DNA from: Enteractinococcus fodinae
GTDB taxonomy: Bacteria > Actinomycetota > Actinomycetes > Actinomycetales > Micrococcaceae
Assembly: GCF_031458395.1 (NCBI RefSeq)
Contig: NZ_JAVDYJ010000001.1
Location: 1,550,001 to 1,614,000 of the forward strand
DNA length: 64,000 nucleotides
Direction: 5' to 3'
Shown: positions 23,601-35,225 of the stretch, piece after piece
Numbering within the stretch: the stretch's first letter is position 1
How the letters are laid out: every line of letters begins with the position of its first letter
Made by a program: the position numbers and the translations under genes
The notes under the pieces: model-generated
The model's input: the letters and a program-made list of their open reading frames with translations, nothing else
Told to the model about the DNA's origin: nothing
Database searches by the model: none

Positions 23601-24443
23601 CTACTTCACAATGAGGTCTTTGCGAGCGTCACCAATAGCCAATTTTAGATCACCGAGGTTCGGTCCGTGCTGCAAGATACCCCGAGACGAGTTGACTAGG
23701 ACATTTGGCCAGGCTTCACCAAACCCGTCACGGATACTTTTCGCTTCAGCACCTTGAGAACCATACCCCGGAGCGAGAATGGGGGCGTTTGCCCCAGCCA
23801 GATCGATACCCAGCGCGGCCGCCTGGGCTGGCACCGTTGCACCCACCACCAAGCCGACTGAACCAAGAGTTTCGTCCCCCCGGTTGTCCCGGGCTGCCGC
23901 CTCCACGACCCGTTTGGCTACCGAGTCGTTTTCTGCGCCAAGATGTTGAACAGATGCCCCTTCGGGATTCGATGTCAACGCGAGAATGAAGACCCCACGC
24001 TGATGAGCTAAAGCCAAGTCAATGGCCGGGCGGAGGGACTCGTAGCCCAGATACGGCGACAGCGTCACCGCATCTGCGACTAACGAAGAGCCATCAGCTA
24101 ACCATGCTTGAGCATAGCCTTGCATCGTGGAACCGATATCTCCGCGTTTTGCGTCTGCGATCGTGAGGATATCGGCTTGGTGGGCCAGCTGCAGGGTTTC
24201 TTCTAGCACGGCAAACCCAGCCGACCCGAATCGCTCATACAGCGCGACTTGAGGTTTCAACGCAGCCACACCGGTTGTCTCGGCTGCGGCTTCTACGACG
24301 GTCTTCGAAAAGGTCGACAACCCTGCCGGGGTGTCATTGAGACCCCAGTCATGCAATAAGTGCCGGTGCGGGTCGATCCCCAAGCACAACGGACCATGGT
24401 GTGCCATGGCCTGAGCTAACCGGGTACCAAAAGTTTGTGACAT
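23601..24443 (-). CDS. pyrF: Orotidine 5'-phosphate decarboxylase (type 2)
   Basis: Final enzyme of UMP synthesis, 280 residues. Substrate and catalytic residues are visible in CLGIDPHRHLLHDWG (about 20-34) and in the signature ILTIADAKRGDIGSTMQGY, which carries the Lys-Asp pair. PGYGSQGAEA is the phosphate-binding loop. The length and motif identify the type 2 subfamily used by actinobacteria. It is the last gene of the pyr operon, starting six bases after carB. Confidence 0.95.
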   Translation of the reverse strand: MSQTFGTRLAQAMAHHGPLCLGIDPHRHLLHDWGLNDTPAGLSTFSKTVVEAAAETTGVAALKPQVALYERFGSAGFAVLEETLQLAHQADILTIADAKRGDIGSTMQGYAQAWLADGSSLVADAVTLSPYLGYESLRPAIDLALAHQRGVFILALTSNPEGASVQHLGAENDSVAKRVVEAAARDNRGDETLGSVGLVVGATVPAQAAALGIDLAGANAPILAPGYGSQGAEAKSIRDGFGEAWPNVLVNSSRGILQHGPNLGDLKLAIGDARKDLIVK

Positions 24444-24449
24444 CTTGGC

Positions 24450-27400
24450 CTACTGTTGGTTTGCAATCACAGCGGCGAGGCGACGGTCATGTTCCTGCAG
24501 GCTCGTGACATCCCAGGAGTATTCCCGCTGTGCTTGGATAGCTTGTAGCGCAGTACCGAACGCAGCCAGGGTGGTCACCAGTGGCACACCCAAGGAGTTC
24601 GCGGCGGCGCGGATCTCATATCCATCTCCCCGTGCCTCAGATCCGGAAGGGGTATTGACCACCAGATCCACGCGCCCGTCTTCGAGCTGATCAAGGATGG
24701 TTTCGCCAGGTGATGGAGCGTCACTGGTGATCTTATCAACCACTTCGGTCATGATCCCGTTGCGGGCTAACACATCGGCGGTGCCTCCGGTCGAAACGAG
24801 CTCAAAGCCCATATCGGTGAGACGTTTGGCGTGGGCGACGATTCCGCGCTTATCTCGGTTGGCTACCGAAATGAAGACCCGGCCACTGGTGGGCAGCCGT
24901 CCACCCACAGCATCTTGAGATTTCGCATACGCTGTGTCGAAGTATTTATCGATTCCCATCACTTCGCCGGTAGAGCGCATCTCGGGGCCCAACAGCGAAT
25001 CCACGACGCGACCTTCGGGGGTGCGGAAGCGCGTGAATGGGAGGACCGCTTCTTTGACAGCGATGGGCGCGCCTAGTGGGAGCGACCAGCCATCATGCGT
25101 GGCTGGCAAGTCACTGGTTTCACGTAGTTGGGCGATCGTTGAGCCTACGCCGATTTTCGCAGCGGCCTTTGCCAGGGCAACACCGGTTGCTTTCGAAACA
25201 AACGGTACGGTCCGTGAGGCGCGCGGGTTGGCTTCGATGACGTAGAGAATATCTGCGGCCAACGCGAATTGGATGTTAATGAGACCGCGTACCCCAACAC
25301 CTTTGGCGATGGCCTCGGTGGCTTCACGCACACGAGCCAGTACATCGGGGGCCAAGGTGGTTGGTGGCAGAACACAGGCCGAGTCACCCGAGTGGATCCC
25401 GGCCTCCTCGATGTGTTCCATGATCCCGCCCATGAACAGTTCGTTCCCATCATAGAGCGCATCCACATCGATCTCGATGGCGTCGTCCAAGAAGCGGTCG
25501 ACTAGCACCGGGTGTTCCGGCGTGATTTCGGCGGTGGAGTGTTTGATGTAGTTCGCCAGTTGTTCTTCGTCGTAGACGATCTCCATTCCACGCCCGCCCA
25601 GCACATACGAGGGACGGACCAGCACGGGATAACCGATTTCGTCGGCCACATGTTTGGCGTCCTCGAACGAGACCGCGGTGCCGTTTTTCGGTGCGGTCAA
25701 ATTCGCCTGCTGCAACACCTGCGCGAACAAGCCGCGGTGTTCTGCTAGATCAATCGCCTCCGGAGAGGTGCCAAGAATTGTAACACCGGCATCGGCCAGA
25801 TCTTGGGCGAGCTTCAGCGGGGTCTGGCCACCCAGTTGCACGAACACGCCCTCGACCGGGCCGGTTTGTTGTTCGGCATGAATGATTTCCAACACGTCTT
25901 CGAGCGTCAATGGCTCGAAGTAGAGCCTGTCTGACATATCGGAGTCGGTGGATACTGTTTCTGGGTTGCAGTTGACCAGCACCGTGTCATAACCGGCTTG
26001 CTGCATCGCCATGGTGGCGTGAACACACGAGTAGTCGAATTCGACGCCTTGGCCAATACGGTTGGGGCCGGAACCGAGGATCACCACGGTCGGGCGGGTG
26101 TGCTCGGTAATTTCGGTTTCCTGACCGTCATACGAGGAGTAGTGGTACGGAGCCTGTGCCACGTGCTCACCGGCTGCGGTATCAACCGATTTATAGACCG
26201 GACGAATCCCCAAAGCATGGCGTACCCCACGGACCACGGCTTCATCCATGTGTCGCAGCTGCCCGATCTGCTTATCAGAAAAACCGTGTCGTTTGGCGTG
26301 TTCCAACACGGACTTCGTGAGCTCATCAGCACCACGAATGTCTTGTGCCACCTCATTTATCAAAACCAACTGATCAATGAACCACGGGTCGATCTTGGTG
26401 TTTTCAAAGACTTCTTCGACGGAGGCTCCCCCGAGCAGCGCGCGTTGGATTTGACCAAGCCGAGCGGTGGTGGCGGTTTTAGATGCCTCAAGAAGAGTTG
26501 CGACTTCACTGGCATCGGGGACCGTAAAGTCTAATTCTGCGTCATCGGTTTGTTCCAGCGATCGCAGCGCTTTTTGCAGAGCCTCGGCAAAGTTCCGTCC
26601 AAAGGACATGACCTCACCCACGGCTTTCATCGTGGTGGTGAGGGTCGCATCAGCGGCCGGGAACTTTTCAAAAGCAAAACGCGGGACTTTGACGACCACA
26701 TAGTCCAGTGCTGGCTCAAAGGCGGCTGTGGTAGTACCTGTGATGTCGTTAGTCACCTCATCCAGCGTGTAGCCCAACGACAATTTGGTGGCAATCTTGG
26801 CGATAGGGTAACCGGTGGCTTTAGATGCCAGCGCCGAAGACCGAGACACGCGCGGGTTCATTTCGATCACCACGATGCGACCATCTTCTGGATTGACCGC
26901 AAATTGGATATTACATCCACCCGTGGCGACGCCAACCTCGCGGATGATTTTGATCGAAATATCACGCATCTTTTGGTATTCGCGATCCGTGAGGGTCACA
27001 GCAGGGGCGACGGTAATGGCGTCCCCGGTGTGCACACCGACCGGATCGAAGTTTTCAATCGAGCACAACGCGATGACGTTGTCAGCGCTGTCGCGCATCA
27101 TTTCGAACTCGTATTCTTTCCAACCCAAAATGGACTCTTCTAATAAGACCTCGGAGGTCGGAGAGTACTGGATGCCGGCTCCGGCGATACGGTGCAGATC
27201 AGTTTCGTTGTAGGCCATCCCCGATCCGAGCCCACCCATGGTGAAGGAAGGACGAACGACCATGGGGTAACCGAGTTCTTTTGCTGCCTCAAGGGCTTCA
27301 TCCATGGAGTGGACGATCACCGAGCGTGCCGATTCGGCACCACAGCGCTCTACTACCCCTTTGAAAGCCTCACGGTCTTCCCCGAGTTCGATGGCGGCGA

Positions 27401-27758
27401 TGTTCGCGCCGATGAGTTCCACCCCGTACTGTTCCAAGACCCCGGCTTCATCCAATTGAATGGCCGTGTTGAGCGCGGTCTGGCCACCCAGGGTCGGCAG
27501 AATGGCATCGGGACGTTCTGCGGCAATAATCTTTTCCACGACCTCAGCGGTAATGGGTTCCACATACGTGGCGTCAGCCATTTCCGGGTCGGTCATGATG
27601 GTGGCGGGGTTGGAGTTGACCAGGATAACCCGAATACCTTCGTCTTTGAGGACGCGGATAGCTTGGGTGCCGGAGTAATCGAATTCTGCGGCCTGCCCGA
27701 TCACAATGGGTCCGGAGCCGATGACTAATACGGAGTGGAGATCTGTGCGTTTTGGCAT
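24450..27758 (-). CDS. carB: Carbamoyl phosphate synthase large subunit
   Basis: CarB, 1102 residues, is full length. The first ATP-grasp half (about 1-400) contains [29 protein letters not shown] and [12 protein letters not shown]; the second (about 555-940) has [30 protein letters not shown] and [12 protein letters not shown]. The C-terminal MGS-like allosteric domain (about 960-1102) follows. All synthetase motifs look intact, in contrast to the degenerate glutaminase of the adjacent CarA. CarB homologues can use free ammonia directly, though with lower affinity than the glutamine-fed route. The gap to carA is 15 bases. Confidence 0.96.
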
Positions 27759-27773
27759 GGTATATCCTTAGTC

Positions 27774-28898
27774 TTATTTTCCGGTGGCCATCAGGGTTGC
27801 GAACGCATCGAAAACCGGGTGTGGTTCATCGATGGCAAGCGCGGTATTTTCTGGGTAATACTGCACGGTCAAAACCGGCAGTTCCTCGGCACGTAACGCT
27901 TCAACAGAGTGATCATTGAGACTGTGCTGGGTCACGGTGACGTCGCCGTAGCCTGCGTTTGGAGCAGGATGGGTCCCCAGAGGCGCATCAACGGCATAGT
28001 GGTGGTTTTGATTGGTAATAATGCTCTGCCCGGAGGCCACATCGAAAACCGGCTGATTGGGCCCGCGCTGGGCTTGCGGCAACAGCATCGAGGCGTAGCC
28101 CAGGGCGGCCGCGACGATCTGGTGGCCCAGACCAATCCCCAGGACCGGCATCCGTGTTTCAAGCAACGCAGCGGCCAAGCTAATTTGATCGGTGGCTTCG
28201 GCTGGGTTGCCCGGACCGGAGGAGAACACCACGCCATCAACATTGGCTGCGGTGAGTTCTTCGATGGTAGTGGAGGCCGGCATGACCTTGACGGTATTAC
28301 CGCGTTGCACCAACTGGGTGATGGTGGCTCGACGAACGCCCAAATCGATCACCGCAACGGTGGCTTGCGGTTGATCGGCTGCGACTTCATAGGCCTCATC
28401 TGTGGTGACAGCTTCTAATAGTTGCGAGGTGCTGGGTTGTTGCCATGCCTGCACTTGAGCCACGAGTTCTGCATCGGTGGCCTGGGCGTCAGCTCCGCCG
28501 AAGATGCCCGCAGCGACTTGTCCGCTGCGTCGAACGTGACGGGTCAGTGCGCGCGTATCAAGTCCGGAGATACCGACCACACCGGCAGTCGTGAGGTCTT
28601 CTACTAGTGACCGTTCGGACTGCCAGTTTGACCGAACTCGCGCTGGATCTCGAACCACGACACCGGCTGGCCAGTACTGGTCAGATTCGGCGTCAGCATC
28701 ATTGACGCCCACGTTGCCAATGTGTGGGAAGGTAAACACCATGATGGTGCCGACATTTGCGGGGTTTGTCAGGCTGTGTTGGTAACCGGTCATTGTTGTG
28801 TCAAAGATCAGGTTGCCAAAGACGGCGCCGGGTGCTGCATAGGAGGTGCCGGCGTAGATGGTGCCATCTGCCAGAACGAGTTTGGCTGATGCGCTCAT
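27774..28898 (-). CDS. carA: Carbamoyl phosphate synthase small subunit with a degenerate glutaminase site
   Basis: CarA-fold protein, 374 residues, with the normal N-terminal domain (MTGYQ at 36-40, FPHIGNVGVND) and a class I amidotransferase domain. By comparison with E. coli CarA, catalytic Cys269 is Gly256 (GIGLGHQ instead of GICLGHQ) and catalytic His353 is Tyr348 (YYPE instead of the HPE motif). Glu350 is kept. Glutamine-site residues are also changed: Ser47 is Ala47, Gly313 is His300 and Phe314 is Tyr301. Hydrolysis of glutamine therefore looks impossible. The protein may still stabilise CarB, leaving an ammonia-dependent synthase as in mammalian CPS1, where the Cys is Ser. It overlaps the preceding membrane gene by four bases. 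Confidence 0.93.
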   Translation of the reverse strand: MSASAKLVLADGTIYAGTSYAAPGAVFGNLIFDTTMTGYQHSLTNPANVGTIMVFTFPHIGNVGVNDADAESDQYWPAGVVVRDPARVRSNWQSERSLVEDLTTAGVVGISGLDTRALTRHVRRSGQVAAGIFGGADAQATDAELVAQVQAWQQPSTSQLLEAVTTDEAYEVAADQPQATVAVIDLGVRRATITQLVQRGNTVKVMPASTTIEELTAANVDGVVFSSGPGNPAEATDQISLAAALLETRMPVLGIGLGHQIVAAALGYASMLLPQAQRGPNQPVFDVASGQSIITNQNHHYAVDAPLGTHPAPNAGYGDVTVTQHSLNDHSVEALRAEELPVLTVQYYPENTALAIDEPHPVFDAFATLMATGK

Positions 28899-29404
28899 GC
28901 TGTCTGCCTTCCGTTAGTGAATGTTTCTAGTGTGGTGCGAAGTTCTTGGTGTTCCGAGATGGTCTCGGTCCGAAGCCCGGTCGTGACCTCGGTGTCATCT
29001 AAGTTCCAGGTGATAGCCAAAATGCCGTCTTTTTCGACGAATTTTCCGGCGATACCCGACACGGTAGCGACCTGGGTAATCTGTGGGGCTGGGATAAAGA
29101 AGTTGGGTTCTCCGACTCGCAGCAGCACAACCCCTTCAGGATGTACCTCAATGCGAGCCTGGCTGCGGTTACCTAACCGATGCGCGGTGACCCGTTCGAG
29201 AAGATGCTGTCCCAACACCGTGGTGATGTAGGTGCCGTCCACCGCAGCGGTGGGCTCGCGTTCCAATAACCGAGCTGGAACTTCGGTGGGAGCTGCAATG
29301 TGGTGTTGTCGCTTGGTTCGGTTCCGGCGGCCGAAATAGATACCTAGCAGGATGCACGCCACCAGGATGGCGGTGAGGGTGACGGTAAATGTTGTTTCGT
29401 CCAA
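28895..29404 (-). CDS. Membrane-anchored PH-like protein of the pyr operon (Rv1382-type)
   Basis: Protein of 169 residues: one N-terminal membrane helix (VTLTAILVACILLGIYFG, about 8-25), a basic stop-transfer stretch (RRNRTKRQHH), then a soluble beta-rich domain (about 60-165). A gene of this kind lies between pyrC and carA in many actinobacteria (Rv1382 in M. tuberculosis). Function is unknown; the PH-like assignment is a fold guess. It overlaps carA by ATGA, so it is translated with the degenerate CarA. Confidence 0.8.
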   Translation of the reverse strand: MDETTFTVTLTAILVACILLGIYFGRRNRTKRQHHIAAPTEVPARLLEREPTAAVDGTYITTVLGQHLLERVTAHRLGNRSQARIEVHPEGVVLLRVGEPNFFIPAPQITQVATVSGIAGKFVEKDGILAITWNLDDTEVTTGLRTETISEHQELRTTLETFTNGRQTA

Positions 29405-29421: not shown

Positions 29422-30747
29422 TTAACTGTGCCGGTATGGGGTCGTCAGGTTGGCGTCAGCGACGACCTGGTGGCCGCGGTAAAACACGTCCGTGACTTGC
29501 CCGGAGAGCTCCATGCCGCGATATGGGGAGTTGGTTGATTTGGAGGCGTGGTCGGTCGGGTTCACCGTGAACTTGTGATGGGGGTCGTACACGACCAGAT
29601 TCGCGACCGCTCCTTCAACCAGTCCCCCGGATTTGGTGAGCTGACCCTGCTCAGCGTGCCGATAGATACGGGCTGGATTCGCTGACATGACGCGGGCAAC
29701 TCCATGCCAGTCCAATAGCCCGGTATCGACCATGGCGTGCTGGATGACCGGCAGCGCGGTTTCTAGCCCGGTCATCCCCATAGCTGCCACTACCCATTCG
29801 CATTGCTTAGTCTCTTGGGTATGCGGTGCGTGGTCAGTTCCGACCGTATCAATCGTGCCATCGGCCAGACCTTCGCGCAGTGCATGAACATCGGAATCTT
29901 TTCGCAGCGGCGGGTTGACCTTATACACGGGGTCGTAGGTCTTGACGTAGTCTTCGGTCAACAGCAGGTGGTGGGGCGTGACTTCGGCCGTCACGTTGAT
30001 GCCTTGCGATTTTGCCCAACGAATCAGTTCGACTGATCCGGCGGTGGAGACATGGCAGATATGAATTCTGGAGTCGACATGCTGAGCTAAGAGAACGTCC
30101 CGGGCGATAATCGATTCTTCCGCCACGGCCGGCCAGCCGGCAAGGCCCAGTTCTGATGAGAGCGCTGATTCGTTCATTTGTGCGCCCTCGGTCAGTCTCG
30201 GCTCTTGGGCGTGCTGGGCGATGAACCCGTCGAAAGATTTCACGTATTCCAGTGCACGACGCATCAGCACGGGATCCCAGACGCACATGCCGTCATCGGA
30301 GAACATGGTGACCTGGGCTGTGGAATCATACATCGCTGATAATTCTGCCAGGCGTTCGCCCGCAAGACCAACGGTGACTGCTCCCACCGGATGGACGTCT
30401 GTCCAACCGGATTGTCTACCTAAGCGGTAGACCTGTTCTACTACCCCGGCGGTGTCCGCTACCGGATTGGAATTTGCCATCGCGTGGACCGCAGTGAAGC
30501 CGCCTTTGGCTGCCGCTTGGGTTCCCGTCTCGACGGTTTCGGCATCATCGTTGCCGGGCTCTCTTAAGTGAGTGTGTAGATCGACGAGTCCGGGCAGGAC
30601 GATCTTGCCGGTGGCGTCGATGGTCTGCGCTGCCTCGGCAGCCAAACTATTCCCTAGGTGAGCAATGGTGCCGTTAGCATCGATGGCGATATCTGTGGCG
30701 ATACCGTCTGGTGTCGTGCCGCCGGTGATCAAATACGAAATGGTCAT
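29422..30747 (-). CDS. pyrC: Dihydroorotase
   Basis: Class I dihydroorotase, about 441 residues, cyclising carbamoyl aspartate to dihydroorotate. Zinc ligands are in LVDLHTHLREPG, the carbamylated-lysine region follows KGGFTAVHAMANSNPV, and further ligands lie in HICHVSTAGS, VTPHHLLL and TVGTDHAPH. The frame extends to 30963, but that overlaps pyrB. I take the ATG at 30747 because AAAGG lies seven bases before it; an ATG at 30762 overlapping the pyrB stop (ATGA) is the alternative. Confidence 0.95.
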   Translation of the reverse strand: MTISYLITGGTTPDGIATDIAIDANGTIAHLGNSLAAEAAQTIDATGKIVLPGLVDLHTHLREPGNDDAETVETGTQAAAKGGFTAVHAMANSNPVADTAGVVEQVYRLGRQSGWTDVHPVGAVTVGLAGERLAELSAMYDSTAQVTMFSDDGMCVWDPVLMRRALEYVKSFDGFIAQHAQEPRLTEGAQMNESALSSELGLAGWPAVAEESIIARDVLLAQHVDSRIHICHVSTAGSVELIRWAKSQGINVTAEVTPHHLLLTEDYVKTYDPVYKVNPPLRKDSDVHALREGLADGTIDTVGTDHAPHTQETKQCEWVVAAMGMTGLETALPVIQHAMVDTGLLDWHGVARVMSANPARIYRHAEQGQLTKSGGLVEGAVANLVVYDPHHKFTVNPTDHASKSTNSPYRGMELSGQVTDVFYRGHQVVADANLTTPYRHS

Positions 30748-30758
30748 GGTCTGGCCTT

Positions 30759-31709
30759 TCATTGCCCTAGTTGCCCTGCCAGCAGCAGGTACAACACTGC
30801 CATACGGACTGACACGCCGTTGGCCACTTGTTCGAGTGCGGTGTTTTGTGCGGAATCCGCTGCGGCCGCTGAGATTTCTAGGCCACGGTTCATTGGGCCG
30901 GGATGCATAATCAGCGTTGGCGTATTCGCAATCTTTTTGTACCGATCGTTGGTTAAACCCCATCGACGCGTGTACTCGGCAGCTGACGGGAAAAAATCCC
31001 CGGACATACGTTCAGCCTGGACACGCAGCATCATGACTGCCTCGGGACGTTGGGCTAAGAGTGCATCCAAGTCATAGTTCACTTCGACGGGCCAGGTGTG
31101 CACTCCCACTGGCATCAAGGTGGGTGGGCCTGACAGGGTCACCTTGGCGCCTAACGTGTGCAGCAACCACACGTTTGACCGGGCTACGCGTGAATGTAAA
31201 ATGTCGCCAACAATCACTATGTGTATGCCGGCTAGGTCCTTGCCGGTCCCCTGTTGGTTGTATAGCCGGTTCCGCAACGTGAAGGCATCTAAGAGCGCTT
31301 GCGTGGGGTGTTCGTGCGTGCCATCGCCGGCATTGATCACTGCCGATGACGACCAACCGAAGTTCGCTAATTGTTGTGCCGCGCCGGAGGCCCAGTGGCG
31401 CATCACGATCGCGTCGCCACCGATAGCCTCTAAAGTTTGAACGGTGTCTTTGAGCGACTCCCCTTTGGAAACCGAGGATGTCTTGACCGCAAAATTTAAC
31501 ACGTCGGCTGACAGTCGTTTAGCTGCTGCTTCAAATGAAGTACGGGTGCGTGTGGAGTCTTCGAAGAAGAGGTTCACCACGGTTTGGCCGCGCAACGTCG
31601 GCAGTTTCTTGATGGACCGGTCCGAGACGGAGGCCATTTCTTGGGCGGTATCCAAGATCGCCAGGGCGTGATCGTAGGATAAGTCCCGGGTTGCTAGCAG
31701 GTGACGCAT
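30759..31709 (-). CDS. pyrB: Aspartate carbamoyltransferase catalytic subunit
   Basis: ATCase catalytic chain of 316 residues. The carbamoyl-phosphate site is [15 protein letters not shown] (about 49-63), with [13 protein letters not shown] and VMRHWASGA next; [14 protein letters not shown] is the aspartate-side signature. No regulatory chain gene (pyrI) is present, as in other actinobacteria. The start codon overlaps the pyrR stop in TAATG, so translation is coupled to pyrR. Confidence 0.96.
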
Positions 31710-32293
31710 TAGTTGATCACATCCACGATTTGTACTTGATCAGCGGTGTAGTACGCTTCGTCACCGTCAATTTCAGCCAGATGGACTCGCACGTGCTCTG
31801 ATGACGCGGTCGGCAAGTTCTTGCCCACATAGTCAGCGCGCAATGGAAGTTGGCGATGGCCGCGATCGACTAACACAGCAAGACGTACTGTGTGTGGTCG
31901 TCCGAGGTCGGCTAGCGCATCCAGTGCGGCCCGTATTGTGCGCCCGGAGTACAAGACATCGTCCACCAGCACCACCACAGCATCATCGATGCCGACCGGT
32001 GGGATGATGGTCGAGGCCGGTACGCGTGTACCGGTCCGGCCTAGATCGTCCCGGTAGAGTGTGATGTCGAGCTGTCCGGTACGCTCGGCGGCTACAAATT
32101 CCGGATCAATCTCGGCCAGTTTCTCCGCGAGCCGGTTGGCTAATGGCACGCCGCGGCGCGGGATGCCTAGCAGCAGGAGATTTTCGGTGCCTCGGTTTGC
32201 TTCTAGAATTTCATGGGCAATGCGTGTTAGGACCCGATTGATATCGGCTGCTGACATCACGGTGCGGACTTTTCGCACAGGTTGATGCACCAC
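31709..32293 (-). CDS. pyrR: Bifunctional pyr operon regulator / uracil phosphoribosyltransferase
   Basis: PyrR of 194 residues. The PRPP-binding loop is [20 protein letters not shown] (about 104-123), and [20 protein letters not shown] and [11 protein letters not shown] are typical. PyrR binds a purine-rich loop in pyr mRNA when UMP is high. The start is GTG at 32293, five bases after AAAGGAG; the next codon is also GTG. It is the first gene of the pyr operon, with a PyrR-loop match directly before it. Confidence 0.95.
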
Positions 32294-33557: not shown

Positions 33558-35225
33558 CTAGTCGGCGATTTCCTGGTAGGCGGCGAACAGTAACGATTCA
33601 TCGGGAACGTCGTAGATGACCGGTGCGCCCTGAGCCTCCAGGATCACAAAACGAAGTTGCTCACCACGGTTCTTTTTATCGCGCCGGATACCATCGAGCA
33701 GGGTGGCCCAGCGGTCGCCCTGATAGGAGGTCGGTAGGCCGACACCTTCGATGATGCGTTTGTGGCGCTCGACGGTGTCATCGTCGAGTCGGCCAACTGA
33801 ACGGGCGAGTTCTGCTGCAAAGACCATACCTACGGCAACGGCAGCACCGTGGCGGTATTGGTACCGTTCTGCCAATTCAATCGCATGGCCGAGCGTGTGA
33901 CCGTAGTTGAGCATCTGCCGCTGGTTAGATTCTTTGAGATCTTCACCAACGATGTCGGCCTTGACCTGCACGGCTCGTTCAATGAGTTCCCGTAACACTG
34001 GCGAGTGCGGGTTGGTGACCTGTCCCATGTTGTCTTCGATGAGGTCCAGAATCTTCTCATCAGCGATGAACCCGCATTTGATGACTTCGGCGAGCCCGGA
34101 GATCAGCTCATTTTTTGGCAAGGTCAACAATGTGTCGAGGTCTGCTAGGACTCCGGCGGGCGGGTGGAATGAGCCCACAAGGTTTTTTCCCTCAGCGGTG
34201 TTGATGCCGGTTTTCCCTCCGACCGCCGCGTCCACCATGCCCAGCAGCGTGGTAGGCATGTGGACCACGCGCACGCCGCGTAGCCATGTTGCGGCTACAA
34301 AGCCGGCAAGGTCTGATACCGCTCCCCCACCGACAGACACCACGGCATCTGATCGGGTGAAGTCACTTTGGCCAAGGACTTGCCAGCAGAACGAGGCAAC
34401 TTCGATGTGCTTGCCCTCTTCAGAGTCCGGAATTTCTACCAGAATCGCGTTGTAGCCTGCGTCATCAAGGGCAGCTTTGACGACATCTCCGGTTGCGCGC
34501 AAGGCACGGGGCAAAATGATGGCCACCCGATGAGGGTGCGGGCCCAAAATGCCCGGCAGTTGCGACAACAGCCCTTTGCCGATCACCACGTCGTAGCCGC
34601 CGGTGACTTCTTTTTCGGAGCCGCCAGAAACCTTAATAACTGTGGGTTGATCGACGGCGTGATTCGTGGATGGTTCAGACATATACTCGGTCGTTTTCCT
34701 TGACAAAAATTGCTCGTATCCTTCGATGATCTTAGTCGCCACAGCCTCCACGTCCAGTCCGGAGGTATCAACCACCCGATGGGCTGAATCTGTGTAGTAG
34801 GCCTGGCGCGCTTGGCGAATCCTGGACCAGTTGCCGGCGGGGTCCCCAGCCAGTACGGGCCGATCGGCGCCTTCCCCTAACCGTTGCAGCGCCTGGTCTT
34901 CGGCAACATCCAAGAAGACCACGTAGCCGTGTTGTTTGATGAGATCCCGATTAGCCGACCGAATCACGGCTCCGCCGCCCAAGGAAATAACCCCGAGGTC
35001 GCGGCGTGCTAACGCGTCAGCAATCACAGCTTCTTCTTCGTCCCGAAAAGCAGCCTCGCCGTGAGCGGCGAAGTAGTCTGCAACCACACCGTGGCGTTCA
35101 ACGAAAAGGTCGTCGGTATCGACGAACCCGGCACCGAGTCGTTGAGCTAAGTGTTTTGCAACGGTGGTTTTGCCAGAACCCATCGGGCCAATCAACACGA
35201 CCGGCGGAGTGTCCTGTGTCTCCAT
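33558..35225 (-). CDS. aroKB: Fused shikimate kinase / 3-dehydroquinate synthase
   Basis: One frame of 555 residues with two enzymes. Residues 1-175 are shikimate kinase: LIGPMGSGKTTVAKHLAQRL is the P-loop, with DTDDLF, ISLGGGAV and RPVLAGD next. Residues about 195-555 are dehydroquinate synthase: DAVVSVGGGAVSDLAGFVAA, GMVDAAVGGKTGIN and NYGHTLGHAIEL (zinc His). No stop separates the two. An internal ATG at 34683, near residue 181, has AAGGA 17 bases upstream and could also start a free AroB. The two enzymes are non-adjacent steps of the shikimate pathway. The stop-to-start gap with aroC is two bases. Confidence 0.93.
   Translation of the reverse strand: METQDTPPVVLIGPMGSGKTTVAKHLAQRLGAGFVDTDDLFVERHGVVADYFAAHGEAAFRDEEEAVIADALARRDLGVISLGGGAVIRSANRDLIKQHGYVVFLDVAEDQALQRLGEGADRPVLAGDPAGNWSRIRQARQAYYTDSAHRVVDTSGLDVEAVATKIIEGYEQFLSRKTTEYMSEPSTNHAVDQPTVIKVSGGSEKEVTGGYDVVIGKGLLSQLPGILGPHPHRVAIILPRALRATGDVVKAALDDAGYNAILVEIPDSEEGKHIEVASFCWQVLGQSDFTRSDAVVSVGGGAVSDLAGFVAATWLRGVRVVHMPTTLLGMVDAAVGGKTGINTAEGKNLVGSFHPPAGVLADLDTLLTLPKNELISGLAEVIKCGFIADEKILDLIEDNMGQVTNPHSPVLRELIERAVQVKADIVGEDLKESNQRQMLNYGHTLGHAIELAERYQYRHGAAVAVGMVFAAELARSVGRLDDDTVERHKRIIEGVGLPTSYQGDRWATLLDGIRRDKKNRGEQLRFVILEAQGAPVIYDVPDESLLFAAYQEIAD

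Follow-up and report, generated by a model that had tools for sequence, protein, structure and literature searches.

The window, a stretch of 64,000 nucleotides from the genome of Enteractinococcus fodinae (G000; a single contig of 2.93 Mb, completeness 99.04, contamination 3.54), contains no N and carries a pyr operon on its minus strand. Two genes of this operon encode the subunits of carbamoyl phosphate synthase (CPS): carA for the small subunit (27774..28898, minus strand) and, 15 bases downstream, carB for the synthase subunit (24450..27758, minus strand; 1102 aa). The start of carA is overlapped by a gene for a bacterial PH-like protein (28895..29404, minus strand), recognized by its match to the bPH_11 domain and likewise situated inside the operon. 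The neighbors named from sequence are presumably pyrR, for the regulator (31709..32293), pyrB, for aspartate carbamoyltransferase (30759..31709), pyrC, for dihydroorotase (29422..30963), whose start probably lies further inside the frame, and pyrF, for OMP decarboxylase (23601..24443), all on the minus strand. Elsewhere in the window, a single 555-aa frame (33558-35225) reads as what we take to be shikimate kinase fused to 3-dehydroquinate synthase.

The intact carA frame comprises 374 codons, free of stops and frameshifts, and its product matches PF00988 and PF00117. The CPSase_sm_chain domain (residues 7-132; 28503..28880, minus strand) is ordinary; the class I glutamine amidotransferase (GATase) domain (residues 183-364; 27807..28352, minus strand) keeps its predicted fold and has lost the catalytic Cys and His. 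The protein scores 329.1 bits against TIGR01368, the model of the glutamine-hydrolysing CPS small subunit (cut-off 307.35), but presents Gly256 and Tyr348 where that family has its catalytic pair. Judged by these residues, it is a CarA homologue and not a glutaminase.

Alignment with E. coli K-12 CarA, together with a check of the codons, bore out the active-site residues of the original prediction. Gly256 (GGT, 28131..28133, minus strand) occupies the position of the catalytic Cys269 and Tyr348 (TAC, 27855..27857, minus strand) that of the catalytic His353, and Glu355, the third triad residue, is retained as Glu350 (GAA, 27849..27851, minus strand). The pocket changes listed in that prediction, Ser47 to Ala47 (GCA), Gly313 to His300 (CAC) and Phe314 to Tyr301 (TAT), are equally correct by the alignment, but the list had missed a further replacement, Arg189 (CGT, 28332..28334, minus strand) at the position of Lys202. 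Residues 354-357 read LAID (27828..27839, minus strand) where close relatives carry the GPHD loop, part of the wall of the ammonia tunnel, a placement that is ambiguous relative to E. coli: alignment with E. coli alone puts PH on PH, and alignment with close relatives puts GPH on LAI. The tunnel position of E. coli Gly293 was discarded as an argument, as the Pro found here is matched by Pro or Ile in the three outgroups. An AlphaFold2 model of CarA built from 32 sequences reached a mean pLDDT of 91.4 and has the strand-Gly256-helix elbow in place; its lowest-confidence block (64) covers residues 351-360, the place of the GPHD loop in close relatives.

The companion subunit had been described as apparently intact, and this proved right: CarB scores 1585 bits against NF003671 (cut-off 599). 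Six C-terminal positions that were checked, which belong to the UMP/IMP/ornithine region, match those of E. coli. Of 29 E. coli positions compared in all, among them the triple of gate residues (PMC4655335), 28 are unchanged and the exception is Ala270, replaced by Lys. A protein search of G000 with the window CarA returned CarA itself and one weak match, a PabA-PabB fusion (E 9.6e-4); no second CarA, which the original prediction had named as the finding that would overturn it, emerged from this search. Apart from the CPS of the window, no carbamoyl phosphate synthase was found in G000.

Conservation and selection within the clade

We compared G000 with eight relatives, which together form the Enteractinococcus/Yaniella genus set of nine genomes: Enteractinococcus helveticum, E. 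coprophilus DSM 24083, Enteractinococcus sp. bin101, Yaniella halotolerans DSM 15476, Yaniella sp. 38_S52, Candidatus Y. excrementavium, Ca. Y. excrementigallinarum and Micrococcaceae KG10. Three of the eight relatives are isolates, and two members of the set are incomplete (G007, 71%; G002, 88%). Their CarAs share 67-77% identity with that of the window. The comparison with related genomes that the original prediction had called for showed both replacements to be conserved across the genus: the Cys position is Gly in all eight full CarAs, window included, and the His position is Tyr in 9/9, counting the C-terminal piece of the split G007 copy, so that no relative within the genus has a normal Cys and His. 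Outside the genus, CarA matches were obtained in 50 of 50 genomes, with an N-terminal piece only in G038 and a weak match only in G051. From these, active sites were read at 22 loci of other genera of the family and order, and the catalytic Cys and His are present in all 22. The Lys202 position is Arg in 8/8 genus CarAs and Lys in the three outgroups aligned. Recurrence of the same two replacements in relatives at 67-77% identity, and in none of the 22 outgroup proteins, rules out a sequencing error, against which the original prediction had argued, as well as decay in a single strain.

The GATase domain of CarA, though devoid of its catalytic residues, is under purifying selection. By the Nei-Gojobori method, its dN/dS is about 0.10 (0.082/0.80) for the pair G005-G006, 0.064 (0.061/0.95) for G001-G002 and 0.083 (0.064/0.77) for G002-G003; these are the least diverged pairs, many others in the genus being near or at dS saturation. 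The dN of the GATase domain exceeds that of the N-domain in 25 of 28 genus pairs versus 4 of 15 outgroup pairs, so selection on this domain is partly relaxed. A quick tree of 72 CarA rows placed the genus, on a branch of 1.47, inside an actinobacterial set of 33 rows (SH-aLRT 100). This tree omits L075 and L085, which were too short, and came with a warning of long branches meeting; with that caveat, nothing in it points outside Actinobacteria, as a horizontal origin of carA might have done.

Other amidotransferases and missing genes

The original prediction was right about CarA but too narrow in confining the loss to it, since GuaA, PurQ and PabA are likewise changed; more than one unrelated synthetase has thus lost its glutaminase residues in the same genomes. 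In GuaA, Cys is replaced by Ser or Gly and His by Asp or Asn in 9/9 genus genomes, whereas both residues are kept in 6/6 actinobacterial outgroup genomes. The outgroup motif ILSGGP corresponds to V(I/L)A(A/V)RS in the genus, GICYG to a stretch in which Ser or Gly replaces Cys, and QWHPEV to.W(D/N)... The G000 protein reaches 449.6 bits for the synthetase part (cut-off 338.75), but only 100.0 for the GATase part (cut-off 172.15). In PurQ, GICNGFQ has become G(L/V)GNGFQ, with Gly for Cys, in 9/9 genus genomes, and His is Ser or Asn in the 8/8 genus copies that have that end; among the outgroups, G037 keeps Cys and His and G038 keeps Cys, this search having left out G009 and G010. PurL is normal (914.6 bits, cut-off 648). 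The PabA domain of the PabA-PabB fusion has lost Cys and His in all seven genus copies read (G002 and G007 were not recovered), and the fusion of G009, a member of the same family, retains Cys.

The loss does not extend to all glutamine amidotransferases. HisH keeps Cys and His, and PurF keeps Cys1, in 8/8 genus copies each (G007 was not recovered for either), which makes some remaining use of glutamine probable. The RYSTT and AHNGN motifs of PurF (L179, L228 and their orthologues) are altered in 8/8 genus copies. Among class II proteins, where uncertain start codons make nucleophile calls less firm, an AsnB-like protein of G000 begins MSAIVA, with Ser for Cys if the start is right. In proteins of the N-acetylglutaminylglutamine amidotransferase (NAGGN) type, an assignment made by score for G000 alone, the nucleophile position reads Cys in G000 and G008 and Ser or Thr in G006 and G005. 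At the class II loci L153, L154, L155, L157 and L165, the nucleophile is apparently lost in some genomes and retained in others, as if loss were still going on. Of the weak matches to PdxT, the two that were read (L145, L147) look PfpI-type.

Three further glutamine-using families were searched for by score. PyrG (TIGR00337) was over its cut-off in 0/9 genus genomes versus 5/6 others, the exception being G038. In G009 and G010 the gene order, with names assigned from sequence, is nadK-recN-pyrG-nudix-xerD. The recN and nudix genes adjoin or overlap without pyrG in 8/8 genus genomes where recN was found (in G000 at G000:C1:1726000-1736500, L253). The TrpG/PabA family (TIGR00566) was over its cut-off in 0/9 genus genomes versus 5/6 outgroups, with weak matches below the cut-off read in part, and GlmS (TIGR01135) in 0/9 versus 3/3, the three outgroups being from other families of the order and none from the same family. 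In G000, no glmS lies between the genes that we take to be glmM and alr, its usual place (G000:C1:792000-811999, L337). Masked stretches exist in these genomes, for example 252 N in L036, so a single absence could reflect masking; the recN-nudix region is free of N in seven long stretches, and masking is not likely to lie behind nine concordant gene absences.

On the supply side, loss of glutamine synthetase was rejected as a cause, because the GlnA family is present in 9/9 genus genomes. No gltB was seen in the ~120 kb of G000 around glnA and recN that were read by eye. The original prediction had proposed looking for a stand-alone glutaminase, and PF04960 was indeed found in 9/9 genus genomes; a clade-specific partner it is not, as three of six further genomes searched have it too.

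Free ammonia as the probable nitrogen donor

We consider it probable that a clade-wide change has taken place in which CPS and several other synthetases use free NH3, CarA persisting as a structural remnant beside a complete CarB. Without nucleophile or catalytic His, CarA would release no ammonia from glutamine; the remnant would still bind CarB, which would take NH3 from solution, and the GATase domain may persist for a role in assembly or regulation. A working synthetase part beside a dead glutaminase part would likewise characterize GMP synthetase, FGAM synthetase and aminodeoxychorismate synthase. High ammonia and alkaline pH probably permitted the change, free NH3 sufficing so that glutamine would not be needed as a carrier, and nucleotides and arginine in this clade probably derive their nitrogen from free ammonia. 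The original prediction had proposed a CPS unable to hydrolyse glutamine that depends either on free ammonia or on a separate glutaminase. Our analysis supports that proposal, and the same loss in GuaA, PurQ and PabA, together with the failure to detect PyrG, GlmS and TrpG, favors free ammonia over a private partner of CPS.

The E. coli CPS accepts NH3, though only when it is very concentrated (PMC6245113), which implies that the clade has either high internal NH3 or a CPS of improved affinity. The habitat of Enteractinococcus fits the former. E. helveticum was obtained by selecting for nitrifiers with high tolerance of ammonia, and members of the genus grow at pH 7-11 and stem mostly from animal faeces and soil (PMC4966478); another study lists Enteractinococcus as a core genus of turkey litter (PMC7746545). 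This evidence concerns Enteractinococcus, not Yaniella. Yaniella itself is mentioned in litter, cheese and tobacco studies, among others.

Sites at which the E. coli ammonia tunnel was altered reportedly included Gly359, Pro360 and His361; the 1m6v sequence has Phe at 359. Variants with a blocked or perforated tunnel could no longer use glutamine but remained active when ammonia was supplied from outside (PMC4655335). Given this behavior, the GPHD-loop change of the clade is compatible with ammonia entering from outside, though no proof of it.

Several findings count against the preferred explanation: pyrG is gone as a whole gene although PyrG, too, accepts NH3, the PF04960 glutaminase present in 9/9 genomes could be a source of ammonia, glutamine synthetase is likewise present in 9/9, HisH and PurF keep their Cys, selection on the CarA GATase domain is partly relaxed, and CarB has Lys in place of Ala270. 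Nor does an ammonia-rich life account for which enzymes were lost, HisH and PurF having stayed.

The glutaminase leads directly to the strongest alternative, namely that a separate enzyme of ~665 aa raises cytoplasmic NH3 for CPS and the other dead amidotransferases. Its occurrence throughout the genus agrees with this, as does the long C-terminal extension of both copies that were read. However, PF04960 also occurs in G010, in G040 and, with three copies of which one lies in a 665-aa frame, in G009, and normal CarA in G009 and G010 and normal GuaA in all three indicate that the glutaminase is not specific to the loss; running it alongside GlnA would moreover be a wasteful cycle. We regard this alternative as unlikely.

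Somewhat less probable still is relaxed decay, in which purines, pyrimidines, arginine and folate would be taken up from rich surroundings and the enzymes would be on their way out. The undetected pyrG, glmS and trpG recall auxotrophs, CarA changes faster in its GATase domain than in its N-domain in 25 of 28 genus pairs, and G038, from another lineage, combines a missing pyrG with a CarA lacking the GATase domain. Yet carA and guaA are full length in the eight and nine genus copies, respectively, that were read whole, dN/dS lies far below 1 in the unsaturated pairs, and the synthetase parts of GuaA and PurL pass their family cut-offs. Also against decay, the pyr operon is kept in the window and genes that we take, from sequence, to be arg genes are present.

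We think it improbable that the losses protect against glutamine-analogue antibiotics. Drugs of the azaserine, DON and acivicin type alkylate the catalytic Cys, and enzymes lacking it would be immune and run on ammonia. The proteins hit include class I enzymes (CarA, GuaA, PurQ, PabA) and some of class II (the AsnB-like Ser in G000, the NAGGN-type Ser or Thr in G006 and G005), but HisH and PurF still carry the target Cys. An artefact of assembly, sequencing or translation has a negligible chance of explaining the data, given that eight further genomes, three of them from isolates, agree at 67-77% identity.

Returning to free ammonia as the donor, we tentatively entertain a broader version that seems to us rather less likely to be true than false, in which this free-living clade for the most part no longer relies on glutamine to carry nitrogen. 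Synthetases with dead or dying glutaminase parts would use NH3 directly to make carbamoyl phosphate, FGAM, GMP, aminodeoxychorismate and, in some members, asparagine, and CTP and GlcN6P would arise by ammonia-dependent routes independent of PyrG and GlmS. If true, an ammonia-dependent, PyrG-independent route to CTP would be hitherto unknown biochemistry; the clean absence of pyrG, which includes two strains with DSM numbers, in any case raises the question of the source of CTP. The parallel losses in GuaA, PurQ and PabA make it testable whether a glutamine carrier is needed when ammonia is plentiful.

Relation to known synthases and recurrence elsewhere

Carbamoyl phosphate synthesis by the carbamate-kinase-like enzyme of Pyrococcus furiosus, which belongs to an unrelated family, is reportedly ammonia-dependent. 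E. coli CarAB has the same subunits as the window CPS, with carA before carB. Rubino et al. and Miran et al. reportedly described mutants of E. coli CPS at Cys269 and His353; in contrast to them, the loss seen here is natural, fixed in a clade and accompanied by changes at Ser47, Lys202, Gly313, Phe314 and the GPHD loop. In E. coli, Cys269 and His353 are essential for glutamine hydrolysis and the ammonia reaction is possible at very high concentration (PMC6245113).

With vertebrate CPS I, such as human CPS1, the window CPS shares a retained, inactive class I GATase domain; ammonia dependence is known there and inferred here. As in ammonia-dependent CPSs, the domain appears folded, judging by the predicted model and purifying selection, and inactive, judging by its residues. 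The window CPS is not, however, a single fused polypeptide: CPS1 is one chain of 1500 residues, activated by N-acetylglutamate and serving ureagenesis, whereas the window has separate carA and carB in a pyr operon for biosynthesis. Human CPS1 has Ser294 at the Cys position (PMC4655335), versus Cys to Gly plus His to Tyr in the window CarA. By its sequence, then, the window enzyme would function in the manner of CPS I while being a CarAB of the bacterial type. Alcolapia, the soda-lake tilapia, provides a convergent shift from glutamine to ammonia in CPS III in an alkaline habitat; that enzyme is a vertebrate CPS that keeps the triad and has lost one glutamine-binding residue, unlike the window CarA with its lost Cys and His (PMC7657897).

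Among the literature matches listed, all open-licence papers, we found none on glutaminase loss in Yaniella or Enteractinococcus, none on a bacterial CarA that naturally lacks the Cys or on free-living bacteria devoid of pyrG, and no parallel to a whole-cell loss in several enzymes. The statement in the original prediction that no such case had been described in an actinobacterial pyr operon therefore stands for this clade within those matches, though Cys-less CarAs do occur in some Dehalococcoidia (see below). Ureotelic animals and E. coli mutants are known to have ammonia-dependent CPS, and a natural, clade-fixed bacterial CarAB of this kind would add a case in which to ask how a CPS gains usable affinity for ammonia and why a dead domain persists. 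CarA and GuaA still pass models named for glutamine hydrolysis, so annotation by those models would hide the loss.

Beyond the clade, the Cys position was readable in 50 of 54 named CarA loci and not in four; the 50 comprise seven from the genus (Gly), 38 with Cys and five others without it. Four CarAs of Dehalococcoidia/Chloroflexota lack the nucleophile, as here, with Ser in L049 and L052 and Gly in L050 and L053, but all four keep the His that the window CarA has lost. On the 72-row tree, which does not include L085, loss of Cys requires at the fewest three changes. In the four Chloroflexota genomes GuaA keeps its Cys (4/4), as do TrpG (L283, L284) and PyrG (L310) where read. As far as seen, the Dehalococcoidia loss would concern CarA only, and the multi-enzyme loss appears, among the genomes so far seen, limited to the Enteractinococcus/Yaniella clade.

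Two further cases lie in other lineages. G038, a single contig from another family, encodes a 136-aa CarA consisting of the N-terminal domain only (L262:4013-4423), which overlaps the following carB; its PyrG and TrpG were not over the cut-off, and its GuaA, PurL, GlmS, HisH and PurF keep Cys. A divergent CarA-like protein of Oscillospiraceae (L085:8910-9857; 29% identical) reads AVGLGHT and VQFRPDE and has lost both Cys and His. The genome that carries it encodes another PF00117 protein, in a 369-aa frame.
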